64,000 nucleotides of DNA, from the NCBI GenBank assembly GCA_019429385.1, contig JAHYIS010000001.1, forward strand, positions 62,001-126,000, written 5' to 3'. Position 1 is the first letter of the stretch; every line of letters begins with the position of its first letter. Shown piece by piece: positions 31,775 to 38,943 of this stretch. The notes beneath the pieces were generated by a model. It made no database searches, was not told the DNA's origin, and saw only the letters and a list, made by a program, of their open reading frames with translations. This DNA comes from ANME-2 cluster archaeon. Lineage in GTDB: Archaea; Halobacteriota; Methanosarcinia; Methanosarcinales; Methanocomedenaceae. The position numbers were made by a program, and so were the translations under genes.

Positions 31775-32230
31775 TCATTTGATATTGAATTTAACCCCTA
31801 TCTTGAACAACCTGAGTGTAGGCAGGTCGATCAATGGACATCCGGTGCGTGTCTCAATCTCCTCAAGTATCTGGCCGAGCCGTTCTTTCGTGGGAGCCGA
31901 GACCGTGAACCAAATATTATATTCAGCCGGCCGGAGATAATTATGCGACACTTCACCATAACTGCTGATAATGTTCGCCACTTCATCGATCCGCTCTTCA
32001 GGTGCCTTTACCGCAGCAAGGGTACTTTCCCCTCCGGTATTTTTCACATTCAGGATAGGTCCGATCCTGCGGATAGCACCTTCCTTGATAAGCCGTTTGA
32101 TCCTGTTGATAACTTCATCTTCATTAGAACCAAGATTTTCTGCCATTTCCCGAAACGGTTGTTCTGTAAGCGGGAAATCCACCTGGATATCGTTCAGGAT
32201 AGCCTTGTCCAGGTCGTCCAGTTCTATCAA
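31775..32230 (-). CDS. Siroheme decarboxylase subunit (AhbA/AhbB, Lrp/AsnC-like)
   Basis: 151 residues, an AsnC-type winged helix (residues 5-60, LDDLDKAILNDIQVDFPLTEQP) plus a ligand-binding domain with GAIRRIGPIL and VSHNYLRPAEYNIWFTVSAP. AhbA and AhbB form a heterodimer that removes two acetate carboxyls from siroheme, an early step in the alternative haem pathway of archaea and sulfate reducers. The two subunits cannot be told apart safely by eye. The 3' end of the upstream ahbD overlaps this gene by 4 nt, so they are one operon. The partner subunit and AhbC are not in the window. Confidence 0.85.
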   Translation of the reverse strand: MIELDDLDKAILNDIQVDFPLTEQPFREMAENLGSNEDEVINRIKRLIKEGAIRRIGPILNVKNTGGESTLAAVKAPEERIDEVANIISSYGEVSHNYLRPAEYNIWFTVSAPTKERLGQILEEIETRTGCPLIDLPTLRLFKIGVKFNIK

Positions 32231-33282
32231 ACCTTCTCGCCCCCGGCAGGTATATACACACAGTACGGCTCCTCATCCATATAATCCCCGGTAGCCGCAT
32301 AAGCACGGGCACGACATCCGGTACACACTCTCCTGTACTCGCATATCCCGCATTTGCCTTTGAGCTTGTTGACGTCCCTGATATCGTTAAAGACCTTTGA
32401 CTGCTCCCACACGTCCCTGAAACTCTGCTTGCGGATGTTCCCTGCCAGCGCAGGCAGGTATCCACAGGGATACACCTCGCCGATATGGGAAACAAAACAA
32501 AAACCACTACCTCCCAGGCATCCTTTGGTCATAGCCTCAAACCCATGCGTTTCCATGGTTATCTTAATGCCATCTTCCTTTGCACGCTGGCGCATTATCC
32601 TGAAATAATGAGGTGCACAGGTAGCCTTCAACTGCAAGGGTACTTTATCCCGCTGGTCATAGAACCAGTTCAGCACCCGCTCGTACTCCTCAGGTGGTAT
32701 CTCATCTGCCTCGATTTCCTTACCCCTCCCCGTTGGCACCAGCATGAAGATGTGCAGGGCCTCAGCCTCCAGCCGTACTGCCAGGTCAAGGATCCTGGTT
32801 ATCTGGTCGATGTTCCTCTTCGTAATAGTGGTATTTATCTGGAAGCCAATACCTGCATCCTTGATGTGCTGGATGCCCACCAGTGCGGCATCGAATGAAC
32901 CCTGCTCGCACCTGAAATCATCATGGGTCTTTGCATCCGAGCCATCAATACTGACACTGATACGCTGGATACCCACTTCCTTGAGGTGGCTGGCAATCCC
33001 GGGTGTTACAAACGTACCATTGGTGGCAAGGACCACCCTGAGCCCTTTATCTGTGCCGTATTGGGCAATTTCATAGAAGTCGTCCCTCAATAGTGGTTCT
33101 CCACCTGTCAGGATAAGGATGGGTTTTCCAAATTCAACAAGCTGGTCAATGAAATCCTTTGCCTCGTCAGTGGATAGTTCATTCGGGTCAAGTTTCGTTA
33201 CTGCATCGGCCCGGCAGTGCCTGCAAGCAAGGTTGCAGGCCCTGGTCAGCTCCCATGCCACGAGTCTGGGTGGTCTGGTCAA
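32227..33282 (-). CDS. ahbD: Haem synthase AhbD (radical SAM)
   Basis: 351 residues. The radical SAM cluster motif CNLACRHC (residues 16-23) follows PPRLVAWELTRA, the form of AhbD. A C-terminal SPASM-like region has CLGGSGFCF, YPCGYLPALAGN and CGICEYRRVCTGCRARAY, supplying auxiliary iron-sulfur ligands. AhbD converts iron-coproporphyrin III to haem b by two decarboxylations. The operon with an AhbA/B subunit supports this. Haem supply fits the multihaem cytochromes coded at both ends of the window. Confidence 0.9.
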   Translation of the reverse strand: MTRPPRLVAWELTRACNLACRHCRADAVTKLDPNELSTDEAKDFIDQLVEFGKPILILTGGEPLLRDDFYEIAQYGTDKGLRVVLATNGTFVTPGIASHLKEVGIQRISVSIDGSDAKTHDDFRCEQGSFDAALVGIQHIKDAGIGFQINTTITKRNIDQITRILDLAVRLEAEALHIFMLVPTGRGKEIEADEIPPEEYERVLNWFYDQRDKVPLQLKATCAPHYFRIMRQRAKEDGIKITMETHGFEAMTKGCLGGSGFCFVSHIGEVYPCGYLPALAGNIRKQSFRDVWEQSKVFNDIRDVNKLKGKCGICEYRRVCTGCRARAYAATGDYMDEEPYCVYIPAGGEKV

Positions 33283-33827: not shown

Positions 33828-34517
33828 TCAAATTATGTTAAAACCCTTATCAGTAAGAGTATAATTTGCAGATACGTTCTCGCAACCGACCATTGCTTCA
33901 ACATCGATCTTTTCCCCGTCCAGGTGTACGATATTGTCCACGATCGTTTTTAACAGGGTTTCAATCTGGGAGTCCACGACCCCTTCCGTGTAGGTAATTA
34001 TCCCCGTACCCCCTGACACCTTCATCCTCATGGTGTACGACTTGAGGACCCGTATCATAAGTATAGGTGAATTGAACGAAAACAGGGCTGTAGTAGAATC
34101 AAGGACCGACCTGAAATGATGGGTCTTCTGGTAAATATACTGCAGGTCATCAATTACTGCACTGATTATTTCAGTTGGATTTTGTGGGGAGGCTATCTTG
34201 AACGTATGCGTTTCCTTTTGTGTTGCGCCAATTGACCCGGCTGCGATATCCACTACATAGAGCATTTCTTTTTGGAAATATTCGTGAATCAGCCAGTTAA
34301 AGGACATCATTTTTTCTTCAAGCTGGGGCAGATTATAATCTGTCATTAAGTAGAGGAAGAACTCGTCATCTTTCACTGCCTGTTGCAGGAGATGGTAGCA
34401 GAATATCGACTTCCCGGTCTTTGGGGGCCCGTAGACAAGCGTTATGGTATTTTCAGGCAATCCCCCACCAATCAATTCATCGAAACCGGTAATTCCGGTC
34501 TTAACTTTTGGTATCAT
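33828..34517 (-). CDS. KaiC-like RecA-superfamily ATPase
   Basis: 229 residues, a single RecA/KaiC domain. The start KVKTGITGFDELIGGGLPENTITLVYG leads to an intact Walker A, GPPKTGKS (about residue 30), and a Walker B of the form FRSVLDSTTAL (about residue 140). Such single-domain KaiC-like proteins occur widely in archaea and often serve in signal-dependent protein interaction; FlaH/ArlH is a known relative. It starts exactly at the base after the preceding stop, so it is translationally coupled to the KaiC-GTPase fusion. It is the last gene of the PAS-STAS/Roadblock operon. Confidence 0.88.
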   Translation of the reverse strand: MIPKVKTGITGFDELIGGGLPENTITLVYGPPKTGKSIFCYHLLQQAVKDDEFFLYLMTDYNLPQLEEKMMSFNWLIHEYFQKEMLYVVDIAAGSIGATQKETHTFKIASPQNPTEIISAVIDDLQYIYQKTHHFRSVLDSTTALFSFNSPILMIRVLKSYTMRMKVSGGTGIITYTEGVVDSQIETLLKTIVDNIVHLDGEKIDVEAMVGCENVSANYTLTDKGFNII

Positions 34518-35702
34518 TTAAACTCTGTATATTAATTCAAAAAGGGCATCTAGTGCCTGATGCACCCCTTTGTTGTTCAGGGCCGATACCGGCACTATCT
34601 GCACATCTTCCCATAAAGCCATTCTTTTTTTGATCTCATCGGGTGTCAGGGCATTGGGCAGGTCACTCTTATTGGCAACGATCACTTTTGGTATGGCCTC
34701 TGCACGGCACATATTTATCATTTCTTTTGCCCGGGTAAAGGTTTCGGGTCTCGTCGAGTCGATAATAATGAACGTGCCGATAGATTCCCTTGCCAGCGGC
34801 TCCAACAACAGGTCAAACCGTTCCTGTCCGGGAGTTCCGAATACATCAGCAGAAAAACCTTTGTAATCTACATGCCCGATATCAAGCCCCACAGTTGTTG
34901 GAAACAGTTCAAAAGCCTGCCTTTCCACTGAAACAGCTTCTTTTGCTATTGCATGGACAAACGTGGTCTTCCCTGCATTATAAGGCCCGGTTACCAGTAG
35001 TTTTGGAATAAATACCTTAATTCCCCCGGGTTCAGTAAGCTCGAAAAATGTTTTGCATTTGGATGCAATGGTCCAGTTGGATTTTACCACCATGAATACC
35101 TGCCTGTACATAACCTTCTCTTCAATACCAAAAAGCTCAATTTCACAATCAACCAGGGTCTTTAATTTTTCAATTGTCTGGTCTTCATAATCCCATCTGG
35201 TAAAAATATACACCATATTCACATTGTTTTTCCTGGCAGCCCCATTCCATATCTCCATCAATTCCAGTGTTTTATCCGCTCCAATCGAATCAATTAACGT
35301 GGCCACGTTTTCAAACACCGCCGTTCCGCCGGAGATATCTTCGATGGCACGTAGCAAAATATCTTCACTTTTGGCAAGGTCATTGATGATAAACTTCCCA
35401 ATTGACGGGACCCCCATCATTTCTGAGATAGAGTCAACAAAAAATAATGTCCCGGTTTGCAGAGGTGTTCTCAGGTCCCAACCATATCTGTCAAAGACAC
35501 GCTCTATCTCGGCGGGTGTCCGGGTATTGGTATAAATGAAACCGACATCCTTGTCAAGGTATGCTCGCTGTGAAATGATCTGGTACCCGAAAACATCAGA
35601 TATGATACCCGGCATTGCCTGGAACAATATCGATGTTCCCTTTGGCACGCCCCCGCCAAGAATTTCATCCAGGCGAGGAATGTAGGTTTTCTTCAGATCC
35701 AT
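34518..35702 (-). CDS. Fusion of a degenerate KaiC-like domain and a Ras-like GTPase (COG2229/MglA-like)
   Basis: 394 residues from the ATG at 35702; a TTG at 35720 overlaps the ribosome binding site. Residues 1-225 have the KaiC/RecA pattern (RLDEILGGGVPKGTSILFQ), but the P-loop reads QAMPGIISD, lacking the Lys-Ser/Thr pair, so ATP binding is doubtful. Residues 232-394 are a small GTPase with G1 GPYNAGKTT (about 239), G2 TTVGLD, G3 FGTPGQERF (Asp replaced as in MglA and streptomycete CvnD GTPases), G4 NKSD and a G5 VPVSAL. The gene starts 4 nt after the Roadblock gene, the usual partner of such GTPases. A signalling switch is inferred. Confidence 0.85.
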   Translation of the reverse strand: MDLKKTYIPRLDEILGGGVPKGTSILFQAMPGIISDVFGYQIISQRAYLDKDVGFIYTNTRTPAEIERVFDRYGWDLRTPLQTGTLFFVDSISEMMGVPSIGKFIINDLAKSEDILLRAIEDISGGTAVFENVATLIDSIGADKTLELMEIWNGAARKNNVNMVYIFTRWDYEDQTIEKLKTLVDCEIELFGIEEKVMYRQVFMVVKSNWTIASKCKTFFELTEPGGIKVFIPKLLVTGPYNAGKTTFVHAIAKEAVSVERQAFELFPTTVGLDIGHVDYKGFSADVFGTPGQERFDLLLEPLARESIGTFIIIDSTRPETFTRAKEMINMCRAEAIPKVIVANKSDLPNALTPDEIKKRMALWEDVQIVPVSALNNKGVHQALDALFELIYRV

Positions 35703-35706
35703 TTCC

Positions 35707-36084
35707 CTATACCTCTTCAAGTATATCCTGTACCTGTTTACCCCGGATCTCGATCTCCAGTGTTATCAACCCGAACTGGGCCTCCACTTCAGCAAGGGCA
35801 AAAAGCAACGCTTTTTTTCCTGCGGGTTTGAGCAGCAATATCCCGTGTTCGGTTTTTACGCTGACCTCAGAGACCGCTCCCGTCCCCATCTGGGAACTTG
35901 CCGTTTCGGCACTTGCAATGATCGTTGAACATAAAGCGCCCACGATGCGTTCATTCATATCAGGCGGCATAATAGATGTTATCAACAGACCTTCCACACT
36001 CACAATACCAACTGCCTTTACCTGTCCGACCCGCATGAATTTGGTCAATACCTGATCCAGCTTTTCCTTCTTGGTTTGGACCAT
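35707..36084 (-). CDS. Roadblock/LC7 domain protein (MglB/CvnB-like)
   Basis: 125 residues, one Roadblock/LC7 fold: KLDQVLTKFMRVGQVKAVGIVSVEGLLITS at the N-terminus, MNERIVGALCSTIIASAETASSQMGTG in the middle and ILLLKPAGKKALLFALAE near the end. Roadblock proteins such as MglB act as dimeric regulators (GTPase-activating or exchange) of MglA-type GTPases. It lies directly before the GTPase-bearing fusion and after two PAS-STAS genes, giving the complete switch. AGGTGA precedes the start. Confidence 0.88.
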   Translation of the reverse strand: MVQTKKEKLDQVLTKFMRVGQVKAVGIVSVEGLLITSIMPPDMNERIVGALCSTIIASAETASSQMGTGAVSEVSVKTEHGILLLKPAGKKALLFALAEVEAQFGLITLEIEIRGKQVQDILEEV

Positions 36085-36093
36085 ATGTTCACC

Positions 36094-36903
36094 TTATGAT
36101 TTTTCTATTATTGCAATGGTATATCGCAGCCCGTTCTTTAGCGATTGTTCGGTAGAGAGGGGAGATAATGTGACGCCAAGGTCAGTTAGTTTATCCACAA
36201 CATCTGATTTAACTCCTGTCACGATGCATGTAGCACCGAGCTGCCTGGCAGATTGCGCGATGGTGACCAGATGGTCAGACACTTCAACATCTTCCTGCAA
36301 ACCGGTAATATCAAGGATCACAACACTGCATTCTTTGTGTGTGATCTCCTTGAGCATGGTCACTATCATATTGTTTATGCGACCCGTGTATGCCTCAAGC
36401 CTGTTGACTGTTTCCTGGAGTTCCCTCTTTGCTTTGTTGCAATCCGATTCGGCATTCGATAATTCGGATTGGATATGACGATATTTATGGTGTATTCGTG
36501 TTATAGTTTCCCGTAACCTTTGATGGTCCGTCTTGAGAACAGTGACATCCCGGCCAACCGCAAAAGCACCTGTTGCCTGTCCTGTCCGGTCTTTGAAGAC
36601 TGAAGCATTACAGGCAATTATAGTCCTGGTCCCGTCCGGACACGTGAGGGCCAGGTCGTAATCATGCAACTCTCCGGTCTCGAAGACCAGTTTCACACCA
36701 TTATTTGCCTTTCCAGGGTCAGTAAAGTGATCTGCAAACGGAGTTCCTATCAGTTCAATCCTTTTTTTGCCGGTAAGTCTTACTGTTGCCTCGTTCACAT
36801 CAGCAATGGTTCCTTCACGGTCAAATAGTATCCAGGGGTCGGGACTGCTTATTCCCAACTCCTTTTCAATATATTGAAGCACATCTTCTGGTGCAACATT
36901 CAT
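36094..36903 (-). CDS. PAS-STAS protein (RsbR-like sensor)
   Basis: 269 residues. A PAS domain (about 18-130) with ILFDREGTIADVNEATVRLTGK and ELIGTPFADHF is followed by a helical linker and a STAS domain (about 172-265) with VVILDITGLQEDVEVSDHL and QLGATCIVTGVKSDVVDKLTDLG. This resembles RsbR-type stressosome co-antagonists. The residue that is a phospho-accepting Thr in RsbR (VVDT pattern) is Val here (EDVE). No RsbT-type kinase gene is near. It is a paralogue of the four-PAS protein just upstream and is 9 nt before the Roadblock gene. Confidence 0.87.
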   Translation of the reverse strand: MNVAPEDVLQYIEKELGISSPDPWILFDREGTIADVNEATVRLTGKKRIELIGTPFADHFTDPGKANNGVKLVFETGELHDYDLALTCPDGTRTIIACNASVFKDRTGQATGAFAVGRDVTVLKTDHQRLRETITRIHHKYRHIQSELSNAESDCNKAKRELQETVNRLEAYTGRINNMIVTMLKEITHKECSVVILDITGLQEDVEVSDHLVTIAQSARQLGATCIVTGVKSDVVDKLTDLGVTLSPLSTEQSLKNGLRYTIAIIEKS

Positions 36904-36954
36904 GCTTTCACTCCCCTGAAACTGCCTTCTGTCATAGTGTCCGGACTCCCTTTG

Positions 36955-38802
36955 TTATTCATCCTCGTTATTCTCTTCTTCTATCATTGCTATGGTGTAT
37001 CGCAGGCCGTCAAGTAATGACCGTTCCGTAGTAATAGGGGCCAGGTTGGCGCCAATATCAGTTAATCTTTGTACTGCCTCGTGTTTAATGCCGGTAACGA
37101 TACACGTAGCTCCGAGCTGTCTTGCCAGCTTGGCAATGTTGATCAAGGGTTCGGCAACTTCAACATCAGGAGCTAATCCTGAAATATCAAGGACTACTCC
37201 TTTTGTTTTTTCTACGGTGATCTGGTCTAATATGGTTACCATCAGACTATTGATCCGCGTGGTATAAGCCTCAAGCCTGTTAACGGTTTCCTTGAGTTCA
37301 TGTTCTGCCTTCTTCAGGCGCGTGATATCACGTGCCGCTGCAAAAGCACCCACAACCTGTCCTGTCTGGTCTTTATACACTGAAGCATTATAGGCCACTT
37401 TTGTCTGAGTCTGGTCCTTTGCTTTCATGACCAGTTCATAATCCCTGACCTCCCCGGTCTCAAAGACCATCATAGCACCTTTATATGCTTTTTCAGGGTC
37501 TGAAAAGTAATCTGCAAATGGTGTACCAATCAATTCTTCCCGGCTTCTGCCTGTAACCTGAATAGTCGCCTCGTTCACATCGAGGATAATTCCTTTCTGG
37601 TCAAAGGTTACTAAAGGATCAAGGCTGACCTCTATCAATCCCCGGTTATATCGTTGAAGATTCTGTATTACCTGCCCTGCTCTCTTTCTCTCAGTTATGT
37701 CCCTTGCAGCGCCAAATGCCCCCACCACAGTTCCATTCTGGTCTGTATAGACCTTCGCATTATACGATACAATGGTCTCGGTTCCGTCCTTCGCCTTCAT
37801 CACCAGTTCATAATCCCTGACTTCCCCGGTCTCGAATACTTTCATTGCAACATTGTGTGCTTTTACAGGATCTGTGAAATGGTCAGAAAAGGGTGTTCCT
37901 ATCAACTCTTCACGACTTCTGCCAGTAATCCTGACCTTTGCCTCATTCACATCAAGGATGACCCCGGTCCGATCAAAAGTCACCAGGGCATCAAGATTCG
38001 CCTCTATTAATCCCCGGTTATAACTTTGAAGGTTCTGTATCTCCTGTTCTGCATGCTTTCGTAAGGTGATATCACGAGCTGCAGCAAAAGCTCCTACTAC
38101 CTTTCCTGACTGGTCCTCATACACCGTAGCATTATAAGCCACAATCGTCTCGGTCCCATTTTTTGCCTTCATAACAAGTTCGTAATCCCTGACCTCACAG
38201 GTTTCGAATACCAGCATGGCCCCTTTATAAGCTTTTTCAGGTTCGGTAAAATAATCCGCAAAAGGAGTGCCGATTAATTCTTCCCTGCTCCTGCCGGTTG
38301 CCTTGATGGTGGCTTCGTTCACATCCAGGATTATCCCTTGCTGATCAAATGTCACGAGCGGATCCATGCTTGTCTCGATCAATCCCCTGTTGTAACGCTG
38401 TAAAAAATGCAGTTTCAATTCTTCTCGTTTACTCCGGGTGATATCATGACCAGCTGCAAATACCCCTGTTACTGTTCCTGTCCTGTCTTTGCAGATGGAA
38501 ATATTGAAGTTGAGAATAGTATTGTCGTTATCTTTTGGTTCCATGACCAGTTCATAGTCCCTGACCTCTCCATTGTTCAGTACCTGGACCAATGCATTGC
38601 CAGCCTTCACCGGATCATTGAAAATATCACAGAAACGAGTTCCTATCAACTCTTCACGGTTCTTGCCAAATGTCTGAAGTGCTGAGTTGTTGACATCAAG
38701 GATAATTCCTTTCGTATCAAGGAAAAGAAGAACATCCAGGCTGATTAACCCATATTCTCTTTCCATAACAAGAAGGGGTGAATCCTGTATATGTTTATTC
38801 AT
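36955..38802 (-). CDS. Four-PAS STAS protein (RsbR-like sensor)
   Basis: 615 residues. Four tandem PAS domains (about 18-130, 142-252, 264-374, 386-496) precede a STAS domain (510-605). PAS 2, 3 and 4 are near-copies: each holds LVTFDQ/R-x-GIILDVNEA, GRSREELIGTPF-x-D and FET-x-EVRDYELVMKAK. Each is followed by an AARDIT linker, as in redox or ligand sensors. The STAS has VVLDISGLAPDVEVAEPL, QLGATCIVTGIKHEAV and TTERSLLDGLRYTIAMI. No transmembrane segment is present, so it senses in the cytoplasm. It leads the operon of STAS, Roadblock, GTPase and KaiC genes. Confidence 0.88.
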   Translation of the reverse strand: MNKHIQDSPLLVMEREYGLISLDVLLFLDTKGIILDVNNSALQTFGKNREELIGTRFCDIFNDPVKAGNALVQVLNNGEVRDYELVMEPKDNDNTILNFNISICKDRTGTVTGVFAAGHDITRSKREELKLHFLQRYNRGLIETSMDPLVTFDQQGIILDVNEATIKATGRSREELIGTPFADYFTEPEKAYKGAMLVFETCEVRDYELVMKAKNGTETIVAYNATVYEDQSGKVVGAFAAARDITLRKHAEQEIQNLQSYNRGLIEANLDALVTFDRTGVILDVNEAKVRITGRSREELIGTPFSDHFTDPVKAHNVAMKVFETGEVRDYELVMKAKDGTETIVSYNAKVYTDQNGTVVGAFGAARDITERKRAGQVIQNLQRYNRGLIEVSLDPLVTFDQKGIILDVNEATIQVTGRSREELIGTPFADYFSDPEKAYKGAMMVFETGEVRDYELVMKAKDQTQTKVAYNASVYKDQTGQVVGAFAAARDITRLKKAEHELKETVNRLEAYTTRINSLMVTILDQITVEKTKGVVLDISGLAPDVEVAEPLINIAKLARQLGATCIVTGIKHEAVQRLTDIGANLAPITTERSLLDGLRYTIAMIEEENNEDE

Positions 38803-38943
38803 CTAAACCCCCCGGTAAGTTACTATTATTGTTCCCATTCATTATATTATATATTATTTTATATGAGTTTATTGATAGGAACGAGTATTATATTTTCAAT
38901 TATGTTCACGTGTATTGCCCGGGAACAGGGAAAAAAAACAACA

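Follow-up and report, generated by a model that had tools for sequence, protein, structure and literature searches.

A stand-alone KaiC-like protein, a fusion of an inactivated KaiC domain with an MglA-type small GTPase, and a Roadblock/LC7 protein are encoded by a conserved unit of adjacent genes in archaea. This unit belongs to a tight cluster of five minus-strand open reading frames (ORFs) at 33828-38802 of the window, as we call the whole analyzed stretch of 64,000 nucleotides from a methane-metabolizing ANME-2 cluster archaeon (GenBank assembly GCA_019429385.1, contig JAHYIS010000001.1, positions 62,001 to 126,000 of the forward strand). The window is part of a 2.4-Mb assembly with a completeness rating of 100%. 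Two genes for PAS-STAS proteins lie in front of the three core genes. The domain content, the motif states, the conservation of the core, the exchange of its neighbors, and one natural fusion are direct observations, and the best reading of them is an MglA/MglB-like switch, with its GTPase carried on a KaiC scaffold and driven by exchangeable sensors. In our view the three core proteins probably make up a G-protein switch that is conserved in archaea, with a pair of sensors particular to this lineage placed ahead of it; the cluster would then represent an archaeal signaling system that has received little study.

All five ORFs were confirmed as present, and the domain content of all five proteins is backed by Pfam and NCBIfam, as the sequence-only reading of this DNA had described them: five adjacent minus-strand genes with these domains. 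The cluster contains the following features (lengths in amino acids, aa):

33828-34517, minus strand: stand-alone KaiC-like protein, type A, 229 aa (ORF list, Pfam, and motifs)
34518-35702, minus strand: KaiC-GTPase fusion, 394 aa from ATG 35702; ORF open to TTG 35720 (400 aa)
35016-35702, minus strand: KaiC domain of the fusion, inactivated, with FQAMPGIISDVFG in place of Walker A
34518-35015, minus strand: MglA-type small GTPase domain of the fusion, with G1 GPYNAGKTT, G2 PTT, G3 GTPGQ, and G4 NKSD
35707-36084, minus strand: Roadblock/LC7 protein (MglB/CvnB-like), 125 aa (Pfam and structure profile matches)
36094-36903, minus strand: PAS-STAS protein, lineage-specific input gene, 269 aa, with one PAS domain, a long helix, and a truncated STAS domain
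36094-36429, minus strand: truncated STAS domain of the 269-aa protein (profile match to STAS chains)
36955-38802, minus strand: protein with four PAS domains and STAS, lineage-specific input gene, 615 aa
37279-38790, minus strand: four tandem PAS domains of the 615-aa protein, with 70-78% identity among the last three
36955-37305, minus strand: truncated STAS domain of the 615-aa protein (profile match to STAS chains)

How far is this arrangement kept among relatives? The fusion was searched for in 186 genomes of the order at a cut-off of E ≤ 1e-20 and was present in 71 of them. An alignment-based search at E ≤ 1e-25 gave matches in 77 of 394 genomes of the phylum, some to the GTPase or the KaiC part only. 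The fusions form two paralogous groups, A being 66-90% identical to that of the window and B about 40%, and many genomes of the families f1 (the window's own) and f3 have both. The gene order is Roadblock-fusion-KaiC in group A and KaiC-fusion-Roadblock in group B, with unchanged partners.

Six-frame searches of the fetched loci with hidden Markov models yielded 64 strong fusion loci, 58 of them usable, with at least 700 nucleotides (nt) on both sides; a partner was counted if it lay on the same strand and within 1.5 kb of the fusion. A Roadblock gene stood beside the fusion at every usable locus (58/58) and a KaiC gene at 56 of the 58, and the GTPase was fused to a KaiC domain at every triad locus. 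In a second archaeal phylum, that of the Methanobacteriaceae loci L017 and L018, the fusion was found in 18 of 152 genomes, and here all 19 loci had the order Roadblock-fusion-KaiC, mostly with a second KaiC gene. Because of these counts in both phyla, the adjacency of the core genes is far beyond chance. The sequence-only reading had staked itself on linkage of these genes in relatives, and for the core this linkage exists. Its view of all five genes as one system survives in part: KaiC, the fusion, and Roadblock belong together, but PAS-STAS genes occupy the slot in front of the core only in the window's family. Its pairing of Roadblock with the GTPase domain was well chosen, since the two are nearly inseparable in relatives and at one locus share an ORF. 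In this ORF (L132:4752-6392, family f14), KaiC, GTPase, and Roadblock form a single polypeptide of 546 aa encoded directly after a KaiC gene; it was seen in one genome.

The GTPase and Roadblock trees agree, with Spearman coefficients, which include shared species history, of 0.74 over 33 loci, 0.79 within group A, and 0.45 within group B. Both the GTPase-domain tree and the Roadblock tree join group A of the two phyla, and the single-domain archaeal GTPases fall outside the fusion groups. In the window's own genome, the type B locus is flanked by housekeeping genes, with truD on one side and a CRS1_YhbY gene on the other. At L133-L137 we found a diverged KaiC and KaiC-GTPase pair without Roadblock; in L133 this pair is followed by TP_methylase and DUF357 genes, and genes of similar size are present in L134-L137.

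The fusion protein matched the Pfam families KaiC (E 4.3e-15), Arf (3.2e-13), and Ras (6.1e-12). Its two halves have had different fates. The Walker A motif (P-loop) of the KaiC half is lost in 27/27 sequences, the former site reading LFQAMPGIISD and variants of it in group A and YFNHPGVEGD with its variants in group B. The GTPase motifs G1, G2 (Thr), G3 GTPGQ, and G4 NKxD are intact in the same number of fusion sequences (27/27), and GTPGQ in the G3 position is the signature of MglA groups 2-5 (PMC4316618). From these motif states we infer that the part kept catalytically intact is the GTPase, rather than KaiC. The fused KaiC domain has retained its fold in the predicted model, where the predicted local distance difference test (pLDDT) is 80-95 over much of the domain, and its best fold match is PH0284 (2dr3, 7.5e-12).

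The stand-alone KaiC (Pfam KaiC PF06745, E 1.3e-28) also matches the fold of 2dr3 (PH0284). In the window it has the Walker A motif GPPKTGKS and the Walker B Asp, with Asp at the position of the catalytic Glu (TDY). Both the Walker A motif and the Asp of Walker B are kept in 15/15 type A sequences examined; the KxR finger is absent, its place being taken, by our own reading of the alignment, by AMVG. The type B partners have lost the P-loop Ser/Thr (GKE, GKD, or GKH), and their Walker B Asp has mostly become Asn. Of the KxR finger, the fused KaiC has in most sequences kept the Lys but not the Arg; a KaiC hetero-ring with complementary sites, in which one protein would give the P-loop and the other the KxR finger, stays speculative because of this missing Arg. 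The stand-alone protein scored 49 bits against the ArlH equivalog cut-off of 215 bits, and its identification as ArlH of the archaellum was rejected. The whole-genome search gave no ArlH above the cut-off, and the archaellum is therefore unlikely as the output.

The Roadblock protein matched Robl_LC7 in Pfam (E 4.8e-16), and its profile matched the structures of CvnB5 (3leq, 1e-14) and MglB (5e-5). The genome has nine Roadblock genes versus two Arf/Ras-like GTPases above the threshold, and both of these GTPases are the fusions. The obvious targets, should Roadblock proteins act on small GTPases in this organism, are the two fusions, or else Roadblock would act directly on KaiC as well. Another Roadblock gene of this genome lies 8 nt before the gene of a two-domain KaiC protein of 482 aa (L173:4768-6590, G000:C15), hinting at a wider link between Roadblock and KaiC.

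The proteins encoded in front of the core differ between families. Pfam recognized PAS in the 269-aa protein (E 1.1e-11) and four PAS copies in the 615-aa protein (2.9e-55), the last three being a recent duplication, to judge from their similarity. STAS remained below the Pfam threshold (E 4.9e-4, 20.3 bits versus the 22.6 cut-off), with only the C-terminal part of the domain matched. However, the profile of the PAS-STAS family matched solved chains of RsbR, RsbS, and YtvA (best E 2.5e-13), and for this reason we assign the C-terminal domain as a truncated STAS. The match begins about one helix into the domain, the first strands are absent, and a predicted helix of 68 residues precedes STAS. 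The usual phosphosite D-[S/T] reads D-[VI]-E in 10/10 STAS sequences. For the PAS-STAS layout as a whole the top structural match was YtvA 2mwg.

In family f1 the PAS-STAS gene lies directly 5' of Roadblock, at distances of -14 to 24 nt, in the four genera seen, and encodes 1-9 PAS copies; two such genes stand before Roadblock in the window's genus, against a single long one in the other f1 genera. Family f3 has two Cys-rich ORFs in this slot, about 165 and 150 aa long (e.g. L054:4726-5675), which had no Pfam match; profile comparisons found no relationship of these ORFs to each other or to V4R. In family f9 Roadblock is followed by a gene for a V4R protein. At L162 and L163 of family f3, PAS-STAS genes stand in tandem arrays without linkage to the KaiC-GTPase core, and in G022 a second PAS-STAS gene is followed by a truncated Roadblock of 83 aa (L165:5047-8300).

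How could such a switch work? By analogy with the action of MglB on MglA, a Roadblock dimer would bind the GTPase domain and alter its GTP/GDP state. The GTP state would then change the packing of the dead KaiC domain against the stand-alone KaiC, and the KaiC assembly would be a platform or effector, not an ATP-burning motor. The PAS domains of both PAS-STAS proteins would sense a cytoplasmic cue, and PAS was a plausible choice of input already in the sequence-only reading. The signal would run along the long helix into the truncated STAS, which would contact the core, most simply through Roadblock as the immediate neighbor. Different proteins would take the PAS-STAS place in other lineages, and the downstream target would be encoded away from the cluster. 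In short, we infer that Roadblock regulates the GTPase, that the KaiC domains are a platform, and that PAS-STAS signals via Roadblock. A bolder version, to which we give rather less than even credence, is that the dead KaiC and the ATP-binding KaiC form a mixed ring or stack bearing MglA-type GTPases, whose GTP state would be set by Roadblock and exchangeable sensors (PAS-STAS and perhaps V4R), opening or closing the assembly.

Several points weigh against the switch. PAS-STAS proteins are found at sites apart from the core as well, which makes their tie to it weaker. In the families f16, f19, and f26 a diverged KaiC and fusion pair has no recognizable Roadblock. The single-ORF version in L132 may be a degenerate copy, because the glutamine of its G3 motif is replaced by His (GTPGH). 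The GTPase half of the fusion is poorly modeled, much of it at pLDDT <60, because the alignment is thin. Binding between Roadblock and GTPase, and between the two KaiC proteins, is suggested by gene adjacency and one fusion.

The sequence-only reading had proposed RsbR-like proteins assembled into a STAS scaffold. A stressosome-like complex of this kind would capture or release a partner, Roadblock or KaiC, upon phosphorylation of STAS. The profile match to the RsbR, RsbS, and YtvA chains and the YtvA-like layout speak for it, but the STAS domain starts inside the fold and has lost the phosphorylated Ser/Thr. The whole-genome search found no STAS domain beyond the two PAS-STAS proteins, so no RsbS, and no stand-alone RsbT (an HATPase_c_2 protein of RsbT size), only frames of 463-612 aa below the cut-off, in a genome rated as complete. 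Such searches would have found a real set, since RsbR-RsbS-RsbT-like sets in the same order were detected in the families f2 and f4 (L170-L172). We therefore rejected the stressosome, and the scaffold proposal with it, and regard a stressosome-like complex as highly improbable. The cluster is indeed without histidine kinase, RsbT, and sigma factor, as had been said.

Could KaiC itself give the main output, through ATP hydrolysis or autophosphorylation of the stand-alone protein under control of the GTPase, in a clock-like or ArlH-like manner? Output through KaiC ATPase action had also been proposed at first sight. The type A proteins keep the residues for ATP binding named above, but Asp stands for the catalytic Glu, there is no trans KxR finger, every fused KaiC is dead, and the type B partner has decayed while the core stays conserved; together with the lack of ArlH above the cut-off in the genome, this makes the proposal difficult to uphold and such an output unlikely. 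Another candidate is a controller of polarity or pili, in which an archaeal MglA/MglB homologue would place or switch type IV pili, and KaiC would be the adaptor that connects it to the pilus ATPase. The core does have an MglA-type GTPase plus Roadblock, arCOG02603 Roadblock genes are often located in archaeal type IV pilus loci (PMC4858521), and the genome has three T2SSE-type ATPases; MglA is reported to control the pili of Myxococcus. However, no pilus gene was recognized beside the triad loci with identified neighbors, most neighbors being unannotated, and ArlH is again missing above the cut-off. Type IV pili are a possible output, and the controller as a whole seems to us quite unlikely. 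It is just as doubtful that the three core genes are the sole functional unit, with the PAS-STAS genes as no more than upstream neighbors. The restriction of PAS-STAS in the slot to one family and its solitary occurrence elsewhere would fit this, but not its constant position directly 5' of Roadblock in four f1 genera, nor the extra PAS-STAS gene of G022, which is again followed by a Roadblock fragment. The three-protein switch with exchangeable sensors is thus the reading that we prefer.

Some details of the locus remain to be given. The most likely start of the fusion is ATG 35702, which gives a length like that of its closest relatives, rather than the upstream TTG 35720. With this start the gap between Roadblock and the fusion is 4 nt, and the gaps across the cluster are 0, 4, 9, and 51 nt, in keeping with the close spacing described from the sequence. 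G-rich stretches stand just 5' of the start codon in the first four genes in transcription order, and upstream of the first gene (window 38840-38862) lies an A+T-rich, TATA-like stretch, a putative promoter. At 31775-33282 of the window, a gene for an AsnC/NirDL-like siroheme decarboxylase subunit overlaps a radical SAM/SPASM gene; this pair, which has no relation to the cluster, perhaps serves alternative heme synthesis.

KaiC-family proteins are regarded as central hubs of archaeal signaling, and the three-gene unit bears on what drives them. It joins this question with that of the neighbors of the archaeal Group 4 MglA GTPases, which have been reported almost exclusively in methanogenic Euryarchaeota and had no conserved neighbors in the 2014 survey (PMC4316618). 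The unit, fixed in ANME-2 relatives and in others across two archaeal phyla, offers a handful of proteins that can be put to the test. It also suggests that a Ras-type switch regulated by Roadblock exists beyond the Asgard and bacterial cases, with sensors swapped among lineages. If the mixed KaiC assembly is true, archaeal signaling would include a KaiC hub driven by a Ras-like switch, not by phosphotransfer.

Among known systems, MglA/MglB of Myxococcus and Thermus, with archaeal MglA (PMC4316618), shares with the cluster a GTPase with G3 GTPGQ (groups 2-5) adjoining a Roadblock gene. Unlike single-domain MglA, with which the archaeal survey dealt (Wuichet and Sogaard-Andersen 2014, PMC4316618), the GTPase of the cluster has a dead KaiC domain as fusion partner and a KaiC gene beside it. 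The Streptomyces conservons (CvnA-D) likewise bring together a sensor, Roadblock (CvnB), and an MglA-type GTPase (CvnD), but the cluster has KaiC proteins instead of the histidine-kinase-like CvnA and the DUF742 protein CvnC; neither a CvnA-type histidine kinase nor DUF742 had a match above the cut-off in any of the five proteins (Pfam/NCBIfam). With the stressosome and YtvA the cluster shares the order PAS then STAS, its STAS being truncated and without phosphosite, RsbS, or RsbT. The single-domain ATPases PH0284, ArlH, and KaiC have the same KaiC fold, but here the fused KaiC lacks the P-loop and the stand-alone one lacks the catalytic Glu and KxR.

The nearest precedent on the KaiC side is the archaeal KaiC hubs. 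Passages of PMC5847659 that cite Makarova 2017 link archaeal KaiC-family proteins, including inactivated iKaiC domains, to signaling domains. The cluster also links KaiC-family proteins, with an inactivated domain among them, to signaling domains, and its PAS-STAS input is unmentioned in those passages. The initial claim of a novel combination with KaiC has to be narrowed accordingly: linkage of KaiC, even inactivated, to signaling had already been proposed there, but no description of the KaiC-GTPase-Roadblock triad was found in the literature searched, which did not cover Makarova 2017. Each half of the system is thus already known, one from MglA/MglB and the other from the archaeal KaiC hubs, and the part that may be new is the fused three-gene unit.

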